Shown here one piece after another: positions 19,987 to 34,307 of a stretch of 38,154 bases of DNA (the stretch's first letter is position 1; the number at the start of each line of letters is the position of its first letter). Under the pieces are notes generated by a model. That model had not been told where the DNA came from and did not search any database. It saw nothing but the letters and a program-made list of their open reading frames with translations. The translations under genes and the position numbers were made by a program. The stretch comes from a virus, in the IMG/VR virus record IMGVR_UViG_3300032118_000026, positions 1 to 38,154 of that record; one strand, written 5' to 3'.

Positions 19987-20062
19987 TGGTGCCCCCACAG
20001 GGATTCGGACCCTGGACCTACCGCTTAGAGGGCGGTTGCTCTATCCACTGAGCTATGGGGGC
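19987..20062 (-). tRNA. tRNA-Arg (anticodon UCU)
   Basis: Full cloverleaf on the minus strand. Acceptor GCCCCCA/TGGGGGC, D arm GCTC/GAGC, anticodon stem ACCGC/GCGGT with loop CCTCTAA, T arm CAGGG/CCCTG, and an encoded 3' ACCA. The anticodon TCT (20029-20027) reads AGA. Two near-universal positions are changed: base 33 is C, not U (20030), and T-loop base 55 is C. It lies between the spanin gene and the small genes at 19.6-19.9 kb. It may supply a rare arginine codon if functional. Confidence 0.9.
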
Positions 20063-25280: not shown

Positions 25281-25501
25281 ACTTTCTCCTGTGCCTCTTT
25301 GAGAGTCTTGTATGGTCCATACTGATTCGAGCTTGAATCCCAAGCGAAAAAATGTTCGTTGAACTTGATAATGAATGCTCCGTCATCTCTACGCCAATTA
25401 CCGGGTATGGTTTCTTCCCACTCGTTCATACAATCCTCGTTTCTTTGAGTCCACATATTACCCCAACAATGGACCCAGAAATGCTTTCTGAATGGATTCA
25501 T
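25268..25501 (-). CDS. Hypothetical protein (77 aa)
   Basis: The ATG at 25501 overlaps the exonuclease stop (ATGA) and has AAGGAG. Trp/aromatic-rich (FWVHCWGNMWTQRNEDCMNE; AFIIKFNEHFFAWD) with a C-terminal YGPYKTLKEAQEKV motif resembling the DUF/KTxxEA tails of small phage proteins. Function unknown. Confidence 0.62.
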   Translation of the reverse strand: MNPFRKHFWVHCWGNMWTQRNEDCMNEWEETIPGNWRRDDGAFIIKFNEHFFAWDSSSNQYGPYKTLKEAQEKVCPF

Positions 25502-26136
25502 TTCTTCTCCTTGTACCATTGGGTTAACTCGTCAACTTCCTGCAGAAATGCTTTGACTTCTTTGGTTATTTCTTCCATATAATCGGCGTGGTCTGATTTA
25601 TTGCATGTTACGATAAACTTCTGCAAGTTTTCTTGTAACCTGGGATCGAATGACATGAAATCCCACTCTTCCAGGCCGGAGCAAATCATGTTGCTCAATA
25701 CTTGGTCTAAGTGTTCTTTCTCTGGTATTACCCCATCTTTCATCCATTTAAGATGATTCATGGTATTGAATGGGCACTTGATTTCAAGCCCCTTCAAACC
25801 TGAATACTTTTGAGTCAAATCCATTGTCGTCCCGTCCGGTGATGCCCCGAACCACGGGATATCGTCGCAGGTATAGAAACCTGGTCGATCCACTGTGCAG
25901 TTGTGCTGCATTTCGTACGTAACCCTTGCGACAGGCTCAACCTCTGAACCCCATTTCATCGCCTCTGTCACGTAATGCTCGGAACATTGGCCAGTTAATC
26001 TCTCTGTTACAAGCTCCCAAAGATAGCCTTCTCGTTTGACTTTGGTTCCCATAACGTCTTTGACTCGGGATGCTGTAACCCTGCCACAACGCAGAGCATG
26101 CCACGCGCCTGTACCCTGTTCAACGTCGTGTAGCAT
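25498..26136 (-). CDS. YqaJ-family recombination exonuclease (212 aa)
   Basis: Lambda-exonuclease-like nuclease. N-terminal EQGTGAWHALRCGRVTASRV is the YqaJ opening motif; catalytic residues appear as WGSEVEPVAR (Glu), FGASPDG (Asp) and GLEIKCPF (E-x-K). It resects double-strand ends for annealing by the Erf-type protein encoded two genes upstream. GGAG lies before the ATG. The gene overlaps the small membrane protein by 17 bases. Confidence 0.88.
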   Translation of the reverse strand: MLHDVEQGTGAWHALRCGRVTASRVKDVMGTKVKREGYLWELVTERLTGQCSEHYVTEAMKWGSEVEPVARVTYEMQHNCTVDRPGFYTCDDIPWFGASPDGTTMDLTQKYSGLKGLEIKCPFNTMNHLKWMKDGVIPEKEHLDQVLSNMICSGLEEWDFMSFDPRLQENLQKFIVTCNKSDHADYMEEITKEVKAFLQEVDELTQWYKEKK

Positions 26137-26329
26137 AGACTACTCCGTGCATCACGTCCCCAAGATAGCTAATTGAGGAAAGCCCTAAAATTAAAATAAT
26201 GATGGATATTATTTCAATCACTCTTTTTGGAATGCTCGTCTTGCTCAGCATCCATACAAATATGCCAAATACAGCGGCTACCGTTAGCGATGCCAGAATG
26301 CCGTATGCTAGATATTGCCACGGGCTCAT
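26120..26329 (-). CDS. Small two-TM membrane protein (69 aa)
   Basis: Two hydrophobic helices (YGILASLTVAAVFGIFVWML and VIEIISIIILILGLSSISYL) separated by a short positive loop (SKTSIPKR). Lies between the Erf and exonuclease genes and overlaps both. No family; a membrane anchor or superinfection function is only a possibility. Confidence 0.6.
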   Translation of the reverse strand: MSPWQYLAYGILASLTVAAVFGIFVWMLSKTSIPKRVIEIISIIILILGLSSISYLGDVMHGVVYATRR

Positions 26330-27021
26330 GATAATTGCCCCCGCCTCACGTCATAATAGGCAACGATACCGCCCATGAGTTGAGGGTTTTTGGTCGTCCT
26401 GGCCTGTTGGAATAGCATTTTGTAGCAAACTTCCAGCTCTTCCTTGTTTTGGCATTTGTCCATTTGTTCGCGGGCTTCCGACATAGGCCCATCGTCATTT
26501 CCGTCTTTATCCTCACCAATGGCCAGGTTAAAGATCATGCCCAGGAGATAGCGCCTAGCGTAACTTGCCGCGCTTCCCGTTGCGTGCGTCTTTGTCATGA
26601 CATCGTTGCCCTTCGCTCCTTTACCGTCACGCGGGATAGGGAGCTTGTATTGGCGAGTATGGCCTGCCCGGTGAGATACATCACACACCATGACCATTTC
26701 GGCTTCAGTTTGCGACTCCACCGAAAAGCTAAGGCTAAACCCGTAATTCGTATAAACCGGCCTGATCGCACGGTCAAGAGCTGCAAACGATGCGTACCTG
26801 CTCCGTGTCTGTTCATTCTTGCAATCGGGCACGATGCGCGTTATTTCAGCCTGGGCATTGGCTAATGCTTCTCCGAAAAGCATTCTTGCATGCCTATCCT
26901 CGCTATCGCGTTGCATTCCGATAAGCTCTTTTAGTTTGTCGATGTCCAGATCCTTTTGTAAAGCAAACTGGATCAAGCCCATGGGTGTGGGTTGCTCAAG
27001 CGTTCTAACTTCGTCTGTCAT
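26326..27021 (-). CDS. ERF-superfamily single-strand annealing protein (231 aa)
   Basis: Matches the ERF family (P22 Erf relatives): FGEALANAQAEITRIVPDCK, then SRYASFAALDRAIRPVYTNYGFSLSF and the conserved THATGSAASYARRYLLGMIF with NLAIGEDKDGND. Anneals complementary single strands for recombination and genome circularization, paired with the YqaJ exonuclease. AAAGGTG precedes the ATG. Confidence 0.9.
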   Translation of the reverse strand: MTDEVRTLEQPTPMGLIQFALQKDLDIDKLKELIGMQRDSEDRHARMLFGEALANAQAEITRIVPDCKNEQTRSRYASFAALDRAIRPVYTNYGFSLSFSVESQTEAEMVMVCDVSHRAGHTRQYKLPIPRDGKGAKGNDVMTKTHATGSAASYARRYLLGMIFNLAIGEDKDGNDDGPMSEAREQMDKCQNKEELEVCYKMLFQQARTTKNPQLMGGIVAYYDVRRGQLS

Positions 27022-29181: not shown

Positions 29182-29448
29182 TTATCCTCGTTTGTTCCGA
29201 AATCCGCACCCGTCGCATGAGTGCAAACCCTTGTTTTTCTTCCTTCTTCCGCATTTTGGGCATGGATAGCCCACTCTTACACCAAAAATAGTTGAGTTCT
29301 CTATCCCTAGCATGGGCATGTGCCCACACATAGCAGCGCATCGAATAGCTAAACTAGTAGGGACTAACATATCATCTCTAGGCATGCCCCGCGCGTGCTG
29401 GTCTGCTATGATGTCTAGCGCCTCTGAGTATGGGCTTTCGGGGTCCAT
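29182..29448 (-). CDS. Hypothetical protein with C-terminal zinc ribbon (88 aa)
   Basis: C-terminal CPKCGRRKKNKGLHSCDGCG is a four-cysteine ribbon; the N-terminal part is helical (SEALDIIADQHARGMPRDDM). I take the ATG at 29448 (GAGAGG seven bases upstream); an ATG at 29463 or a TTG at 29481 would add 5 or 11 residues. Confidence 0.6.
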   Translation of the reverse strand: MDPESPYSEALDIIADQHARGMPRDDMLVPTSLAIRCAAMCGHMPMLGIENSTIFGVRVGYPCPKCGRRKKNKGLHSCDGCGFRNKRG

Positions 29449-29483
29449 AACATGGCCTCTCATCCTAGTCGCATAATACAAAG

Positions 29484-29711
29484 TTAGACGGCTCCGCGTA
29501 GTTCATCGTATCGTTTGCATTCGGCGGCCCAACATTCATAGCAAATCCATTCGCCACCCGAAACAGGATCAAGTTCCTCGGGCTCCTTTGGCTGATCGCA
29601 CACGTCGCACTTGGTCGGCATATCCCGGAGCATGAAAATGATCTCTCTCCCAGTCAAGCCGCCTAACCCATCATTCGAGTCGGACGTTGCCGCTGTTGGT
29701 TCCTTGCACAT
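29484..29711 (-). CDS. Zinc-ribbon protein whose start lies in an attC loop (75 aa)
   Basis: CDVCDQPKEPEELDPVSGGE followed by WICYECWAAECKRY is a four-Cys zinc ribbon (residues about 34-65). The ATG at 29711 has GGAGG five bases upstream, but ATG, ribosome site and the first 17 codons all lie inside attC1 (29661-29756). The native N-terminus may have been replaced when the site arrived; a shorter start near MLRDMPTK is possible but has no clear ribosome site. Confidence 0.6.
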   Translation of the reverse strand: MCKEPTAATSDSNDGLGGLTGREIIFMLRDMPTKCDVCDQPKEPEELDPVSGGEWICYECWAAECKRYDELRGAV

Positions 29712-29756
29712 CGTTTCCTCCGTTTGCGGCAACGCCGCTCAATTCTTTCGTTAGGC
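29661..29756 (+). other. Integron attC site 1
   Basis: R boxes GCCTAAC (29661-29667) and GTTAGGC (29750-29756) pair fully. Inside, ATT/AAT, GAG/CTC, CGG/CCG and the 9-bp CGTTGCCGC/GCGGCAACG form the stem. Three unpaired bases (C29676, T29680, A29684) all lie on the left arm, and an unpaired spacer (CCATC / TCTTTC) sits by the R box. This is the R/spacer/L/extrahelical-base architecture of attC, and the asymmetry fixes plus-strand orientation. Confidence 0.85.
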
Positions 29757-30025
29757 CGCTAGTAAGTTGACATGCAATGTTCAGATCGGCTTGAAGATGT
29801 TTTATCCTCTAGCAGTTGTTTGATTATCTGCTTATCTGGTTCCGAACTACCTTTTACTGAGTCATATAATTTTGAGTCTTGCTCACTCAAATACTCGTAT
29901 CGCTTCGGCTCTATTGCGCTTCGTTTCAGCATCGCCCTAACCCCACATTGAACGCGGACGTTGTAGCCACTGGCTGTCCGCAAGTTTTGATGTCCGGCAG
30001 GCTACAACGCCGGTTAATTTTGCCG
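29751..30025 (+). mobile_element. Integron-type gene cassette (275 bp) between two attC sites
   Basis: Bounded by the predicted G^TTAGGC crossover points of attC1 (29750/29751) and attC2 (30025/30026), the usual product of IntI-mediated insertion. It contains one small ORF on the minus strand (57 aa) and attC2. No integron integrase gene is in the genome, so capture would have used a host integron enzyme. Confidence 0.72.
29759..29932 (-). CDS. Cassette-borne hypothetical protein (57 aa)
   Basis: MLKRSAIEPKRYEYLSEQDS, then a charged helix (EPDKQIIKQLLEDK). The ATG is three bases from the GTTAGGG core of attC2 and the stop is just before attC1, so it fills the cassette. Ribosome site weak. 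Its strand is opposite to the attC orientation, which occurs in some array cassettes. A 59-codon plus-strand ORF (29771-29950) overlaps but has an unlikely Ser/Cys-rich product. Confidence 0.5.
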   Translation of the reverse strand: MLKRSAIEPKRYEYLSEQDSKLYDSVKGSSEPDKQIIKQLLEDKTSSSRSEHCMSTY

Positions 30026-30031
30026 TTAGGC
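29934..30031 (+). other. Integron attC site 2
   Basis: R boxes GCCCTAAC (29934-29941) and GTTAGGC (30025-30031), with one extra base on the left. Stem: ATT/AAT, AAC/GTT, CGG/CCG and the 10-bp CGTTGTAGCC/GGCTACAACG. Extrahelical bases G29950, G29954 and A29958 sit at the same three places as in attC1. The stem sequence differs from attC1 while the architecture is kept. Confidence 0.83.
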
Positions 30032-30169
30032 GTCCAATGCGTCGTTTGCCAACATATGAAACCCCTCGGTAGTCATATCGGCCTGGGCTATTTCTTCCAG
30101 TGCTTCTCGGTATCGGTTGCATAGGTCTATCAATTTCTGGACATGTTGATCTGTCTTGTCTGTGCGCAT
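30026..30169 (-). CDS. Hypothetical protein ending in the attC2 core (47 aa)
   Basis: MRTDKTDQHVQKLIDLCNRY, then REALEEIAQADMTTEG, a type common among phage small proteins. AAGGG is six bases before the ATG. The stop TAA (30028-30026) is part of the GTTAGGC core of attC2. First gene of the leftward early operon. Confidence 0.68.
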   Translation of the reverse strand: MRTDKTDQHVQKLIDLCNRYREALEEIAQADMTTEGFHMLANDALDA

Positions 30170-33695: not shown

Positions 33696-34307
33696 TTGAT
33701 CGCCGCCCTTTTTGTTGAGACCAACGGATGTTACTGCGGTTTGCCTGGCGTGGATCCCTGGGACATCCAGCGGGACGCCCGCCTCTACCGTGGCCCATGG
33801 CCAGTGGTGGCCCACCCGCCATGCGAACGCTGGGGGCGGTTCGCCAAGGGATCCATGACCAATCAGGTCCACCAGGTGGGCGATGACGGGGGATGCTTTG
33901 AGGCGGCATTGGCATCACTCATGCGCTGCGGTGGAGTGCTGGAACACCCCGCTCACAGCAAAGCGTGGGATGCCTACGGGCTCCGAAAACCTCAGCGAAC
34001 AGGCTGGTCCTACGATGACGCAAAAGGGCTATGGGTCTGCGAGGTTGAGCAGGGCCACTATGGGCACCGCGCACGAAAGCCAACCTGGTTGTTAGCCTGC
34101 GGACCGAAACCTGCGGATCTGATCTGGGGGCCATCCCCCCAGCGCCTGCCACAAAAGCGCCTTGAAGAGCGTGGTTATAAGTCAGCTAGCCGTTGTGGCA
34201 TGGTGGCCAATATGTCAACCCGCCAAAGGCAACGCACCCCCTTGCCGTTCCGAGAATTGCTCTTGGAGCTCGCCAACAACTGCCAACCCGCCGCGCTGTG
34301 CGGCTGA
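33696..34307 (+). CDS. Phage protein with HPPC motif (203 aa)
   Basis: TTG start with GGAG six bases upstream. Belongs to a recurrent phage family: GVDPWDIQRDARLYRGPWPV, VVAHPPCERWGRF, GGVLEHPAHSKAWDAYGL, then HYGHRARKPTWLLACG. The HPPC segment recalls the PC/PPC catalytic motif of cytosine or adenine methyltransferases, but no SAM-binding glycine motif is evident, so enzymatic function is not claimed. Confidence 0.65.
   Translation: MIAALFVETNGCYCGLPGVDPWDIQRDARLYRGPWPVVAHPPCERWGRFAKGSMTNQVHQVGDDGGCFEAALASLMRCGGVLEHPAHSKAWDAYGLRKPQRTGWSYDDAKGLWVCEVEQGHYGHRARKPTWLLACGPKPADLIWGPSPQRLPQKRLEERGYKSASRCGMVANMSTRQRQRTPLPFRELLLELANNCQPAALCG

Follow-up and report, generated by a model that had tools for sequence, protein, structure and literature searches.

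Gene cassettes of reversed polarity at attC sites of a P22-like podophage and other viral genomes

Introduction

Integrons are generally viewed as bacterial devices, and the attC sites of phages are regarded as rare strays. In canonical cassettes the attC site is situated 3' of the gene and both read the same way. The integron integrase (IntI) cuts the folded bottom strand of attC at the R' box, and the strand is selected by the extrahelical bases. Insertion of cassettes at non-classical sites, such as attG and secondary GTT sites, is known in bacterial chromosomes and plasmids.

The closest described systems are the CALINs, attC sites without an integrase, reported in virulent or temperate phages by Qi et al. 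2023 (PMC9892861). Small ORFs were present between the phage attC sites, DNA methylases were found among the cargo, and IntI1 recombined five of the six phage attC bottom strands tested. The arrays of TJE1 and PH101 were typical in orientation, the sites of P12002L were divergent, and MW202573 was also shown as a CALIN phage. Phage attC sites are already known from this work, the only survey of them found in a literature search that left out preprints and most subscription journals; within the same scope, no report of reversed polarity of the cassettes was found.

Results

Genome of the phage

The window analysed here comprises all 38,154 bases of one IMG/VR record. It encodes a P22-like virion with portal, terminase, coat, scaffold and injection-type proteins, and the record is a P22-like podophage. 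The closest annotated match of its portal is MW202867 (58% identical). Most genes in the left three quarters of the window are carried on the minus strand, and a tRNA-Arg gene with the anticodon TCT is present at 19987-20062 (minus strand). A phage recombination pair, consisting of a YqaJ-type exonuclease and an ERF annealing protein, is situated at 25498-27021 on the minus strand, a few kb from the array described below. Profile searches of the record with the integron integrase model (TIGR02249) and the tyrosine recombinase model (PF00589) gave no match, in agreement with the first-pass annotation, which had seen no IntI gene. A complete integron, with an intI gene and an attI site, is thus not found in the window.

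Two attC sites on the plus strand

Two hairpins on the plus strand possess the features of attC sites. attC1 occupies 29661-29756, with the R'' box at 29661-29667, the R' box at 29750-29756 and a loop of 33 nt; its crossover is G^TTAGGC, cut after 29750. attC2 occupies 29935-30031, with the R'' box at 29935-29941, the R' box at 30025-30031 and the crossover after 30025. Both sites have R''/R' boxes of the form RYYYAAC and GTTRRRY around an imperfect stem, and both show the same order of R box, 5-nt spacer, stem, 6-nt spacer and R box. In each stem three extrahelical bases follow pairs 3, 6 and 9, all of them on the left arm, so that three pairs and one left-arm base are repeated three times. 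The structure scores of the two sites were 15.4 and 14.4, compared to a best score of 10.8 in 400 dinucleotide shuffles, in which the second-ranked score was at most 9.4.

A covariance model was built solely from 28 bacterial attC sites, with the window sequence excluded. On the 38 kb of the window it matched only at attC1 and attC2, both on the plus strand, with 60.4 bits (E 2e-13) and 48.3 bits (E 3e-10), the E-values being rough because of a short calibration. The alignment to the model draws the same one-arm extrahelical bases and unpaired central spacers at both sites. The structure, the shuffles and the covariance model all agree with the two sites first proposed from reading the letters, and by their structure attC1 and attC2 are true attC sites. 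Their crossover points are 275 bp apart, as had been proposed, and with two close attC sites and no match to TIGR02249 the locus is a CALIN, defined by at least two close attC sites in the absence of intI. An Rfam search left both sites unmatched. No useful match came from BLAST of the array in phages and plasmids or from scans for two proteins neighbouring the array.

Cassettes and genes of the array

Within 29401-30100 only three GTTRRRY boxes are present, at 29483, 29750 and 30025. The third crossover-type box, G^TTAGAC at 29483-29489 on the plus strand, has no attC hairpin beside it and forms the left limit of the array. On the basis of the G^TT boxes two cassettes are predicted, both on the minus strand: cassette I (29484-29750, 267 bp) with gene C and attC1, and cassette II (29751-30025, 275 bp) with gene B and attC2. 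The first-pass annotation had the two sites bound a single cassette; the sites do bound a cassette, and the third box closes a second one, making the total two.

Gene C (29484-29711, minus strand) encodes 75 aa with two CxxC motifs. Its ATG lies within the attC1 loop, 5 nt past the SD sequence GGAGG (29721-29717, minus strand), and its stop codon TAA sits in the box at 29483-29489. In the RNA fold of the gene C strand, both the SD and the ATG are placed in a large loop of the centroid structure. Gene B (29759-29932, minus strand) encodes 57 aa from its ATG, or 74 aa if translation begins at the TTG of the attC2 loop (29983). Protein searches with gene B found no relatives, bacterial and plasmid homologues included. 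Gene A (30026-30169, minus strand, 47 aa) is the upstream neighbour, and its stop codon TAA (30028-30026) falls in the R' box of attC2.

Genes B and C are on the minus strand and are antisense to attC1 and attC2, a point about the 57-aa ORF which the first-pass annotation had missed. The units of the window have G^TT limits and one gene plus one attC each, and they lack the arrangement of the canonical cassette, in which a gene is followed by an attC of the same sense. The region is quite probably a two-cassette array in a phage without an integrase of its own. Joining of the flanks would plausibly leave an empty site with GCC TAA C at the end of gene A, ahead of the next phage gene; the predicted sequence is gene A ...GCCTAAC then TTTGTATTATGCG. 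A close relative of the window with an altered array was searched for and not found.

Polarity of cassettes in viral and bacterial loci

A strict attC pattern gave nothing useful in viral contigs. A relaxed pattern for the attC type of the window, followed by further patterns, yielded about 100 IMG/VR loci; these scans cover some stem types only and viral records can be fragments. The relaxed pattern also led to the first other phage and, in mostly betaproteobacterial genomes such as those of Ramlibacter, Hydrogenophaga and Limnobacter, to integron arrays. The control set, 25 loci of bacteria and plasmids, gave 82 strict attC sites, of which 81 were sense to the genes; among the strict sites in the viral loci, 191 of 240 were antisense. 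When the strands were taken from the covariance model and near-duplicates were removed, with related loci still counted, 57 viral loci showed this mirror polarity, 6 were sense and 1 was a tie. Grouping of loci sharing at least 1 kb gave 49 groups without a clearly sense locus.

The codons at the ends of the genes follow the same arrangement. In the mirror loci, 89 stop codons were situated antisense in the R' box against 1 sense in the R'' box, and start codons in the hairpin loop were antisense in 39 cases and sense in none. The gene caller used here was crude, with errors at gene B of the window and at L051, whose twin L050 is a mirror locus. The cassette genes with Pfam domains, for which the gene caller is not needed, were all antisense (6/6), and the annotated phage MW202573 possesses three minus-strand attC sites among plus-strand genes. 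Portal, terminase, RecE/T, tail and primase genes are carried by the viral loci. In one viral contig of 4.5 kb (L036:1-4484), 12 consecutive attC sites lie on one strand and every gene on the other; the cassette genes of this contig include one DNA methylase.

The exceptions with sense arrays were the phages of L059/L078, which have terminase and head genes, and one site of TJE1. Our own scanner found no convincing sites in the known phages TJE1, PH101 and P12002L, and the covariance model placed one TJE1 site, in sense orientation, among the matches listed for these three. BLAST with two short phage attC sites did not find annotated phages. Of 74 viral records searched for IntI, one gave a match above the cut-off. 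This record (L123, IMGVR_UViG_2834908352_000001, 48 kb) has a sense-polarity array together with a full integron integrase (489 bits), and resembles a bacterial integron or a prophage that carries one. The survey implies that polarity could serve as a simple test of phage versus bacterial origin of a cassette.

Comparison of individual viral sites revealed free variation in the loops but conserved R boxes and bulges. The near-identical attC sites L057:674-744 and L097:2459-2530 differ by three compensatory changes in the L stem, which is a sign of selection on pairing. A 203-aa gene of the window at 33696-34307 (plus strand) has homologues, 31-66% identical, which are mirror cassette genes between attC sites (L067, L092, L115 and L052). 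No attC was detectable beside the window gene, which may be a settled former cassette gene.

Gain, loss and sharing of cassette units

The terminase and portal DNA of L050 and L051 matches that of the window at 66-68%. A unit of exactly 534 bp, present in L050 (3431-3964), separates these two phages, which are otherwise near-identical; in it an attC precedes a 134-aa gene. The unit has both of its ends in GCCTAAC, from R' box to R' box, and the gene upstream keeps its stop codon. A 9-bp repeat, GCCTAACGC, is present at the L050/L051 junction, and it would equally allow deletion by microhomology. Among relatives, the number of units at this locus was 3, 2, 1, 1 and 0; L139 and L149 have one unit each, different from each other, and L140, L155 and L159 have zero.

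L105 and L107 have a common unit of about 660 bp, with identity that extends from GTTAGCC to GTTAGGC and a cut at both R' boxes; neither flanking homology nor other similarity was found between the two. The natural junctions in the relatives fall at the R' box defined by the bulges, which is the position where IntI cuts. The units move as attC-then-gene blocks. Two other shared segments (L101:9098-9436 with L111:5806-6144, and L057:683-1128 with L104:711-1156) end at R'' instead of R'. In both pairs one gene is joined to differing attC stems, for which recombination at R' is no explanation.

A second insertion locus was observed before the terminase gene in the L050 lineage (L139:5700-5995 and L145:2136-2843). 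The genes inserted there end in CTAAC or CATAAC boxes, which are possibly decayed attC sites; the covariance model found no attC in either interval.

Discussion

A possible route of mirror cassettes

The cassettes of the window appear to belong to a pool of mirror-polarity cassettes which circulates among phages, and not to be copies of host cassettes. We consider it likely that such a pool exists and is moved in trans by the integron integrases of the hosts. The action of host IntI in trans is inferred, and a host integrase probably helps to move the cassettes of the window. In the reading direction of the phage, a mirror unit would consist of a crossover (TAA^C), the attC hairpin, the gene and the next TAA^C, and the gene may have its ribosome binding site and start codon within the hairpin loop. 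Host IntI would use the folded gene-sense strand, which is the bottom strand of attC. A unit would enter at the R' box of an attC already in place or, initially, at a stop codon TAA^C. The stop codon of the upstream gene would be rebuilt at each insertion, and the TAA in the R' box would spare that gene.

Since the resident site fixes the orientation of insertion, only mirror cassettes would be accepted in readable orientation by a phage operon with one mirror attC. Bacterial cassettes would land backwards, and the phage pool would thus stay apart from the bacterial pool. With slightly more confidence than doubt, we take this further to an integron-type gene economy of the phages' own, in which mirror cassettes pass among unrelated phages by means of host integrases and are separated from the bacterial pool by polarity alone.

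Alternative explanations

The first-pass annotation had suggested that a host integron delivered an ordinary cassette, which would make the locus a standard CALIN in a phage. The attC type does match that of integrons in Ramlibacter and further genomes, most of them betaproteobacterial, and CALINs were already known in phages. The antisense genes of the window and of 57 of the 63 decided viral loci, against sense orientation at nearly all control sites, do not fit such a delivery, and the bacterial or plasmid homologue that had been sought for gene B was not found; this origin is very unlikely. A different possibility is that the attC-like hairpins are translation-start or transcript elements of the phage, with the units exchanged through homologous or microhomology recombination. 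The start codons in the loops, the ERF and YqaJ genes of the window, RecE/RecT in L034 and the 9-bp repeat at the L050/L051 junction are in line with it. Against it, the grammar of bulges and spacers is that of IntI substrates and fits a model made from bacterial sites, the homology of the unit shared by L105 and L107 ends at the R' boxes, and the sites conserve their R boxes and bulges but not their loops. We hold this explanation to be quite unlikely.

The mirror polarity itself could be a by-product of harmless G^TT targets at TAA^C stops in gene-dense genomes, and the 89 stop codons in R' boxes of mirror loci and the TAAC ending gene A in the predicted empty site of the window speak for it. 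A count of gene-sparing targets in seven sequences gave 242 mirror and 184 sense targets; this mirror bias of about 1.3-fold is too small for 57 to 6, so target availability alone does not explain the polarity. As a sole cause the effect is unlikely, and it may set the first insertion. An artefact from chance hairpins, wrong gene strands or bacterial contigs misfiled as viral is extremely improbable. It would draw on the miscalls of gene B and L051 and on the shortness of some contigs, such as L036, but the shuffle scores and covariance-model E-values, the same polarity of the Pfam-supported and GenBank-annotated genes, and the phage genes carried by the loci all speak against it.

Implications

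A phage-circulating pool of mirror cassettes remains our preferred reading. Systematic reversal of polarity in phages implies a separate and long-lived pool of cassettes. Such a pool would explain one-step swaps of small genes, DNA methylases included, which leave the neighbours intact. If it is true, host integrases are predicted to serve phages.

Comparison with known systems

The left limit of the window array, G^TTAGAC without an attC, resembles an array founded at a secondary site, and one junction suggests such a founding insertion in the window phage. The sedentary chromosomal cassettes of Ramlibacter and other betaproteobacteria have the same class of attC, with three extrahelical bases, 5/6 spacers and a CGGACG...CGCCG stem. 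In these cassettes the attC lies at the 3' side of the gene and shares its sense, whereas in the window it is 5' and antisense. The attC of qacG2, from a class 1 integron of the control set, shares with the window sites the 5/6 spacers and the pattern of three pairs followed by one left-arm base; in class 1 plasmid cassettes such as qacG2 and aadA1 the attC lies 3' of the gene, the genes are read from Pc and intI1 is present beside many arrays. The phage CALINs of Qi et al. (PMC9892861) are alike in their attC sites, the absence of an integrase and their small ORFs, but that paper makes no mention of antisense genes, start codons in loops or gain and loss of units, the features found here. MW202573, a phage of the same paper, is of mirror polarity by the present analysis.
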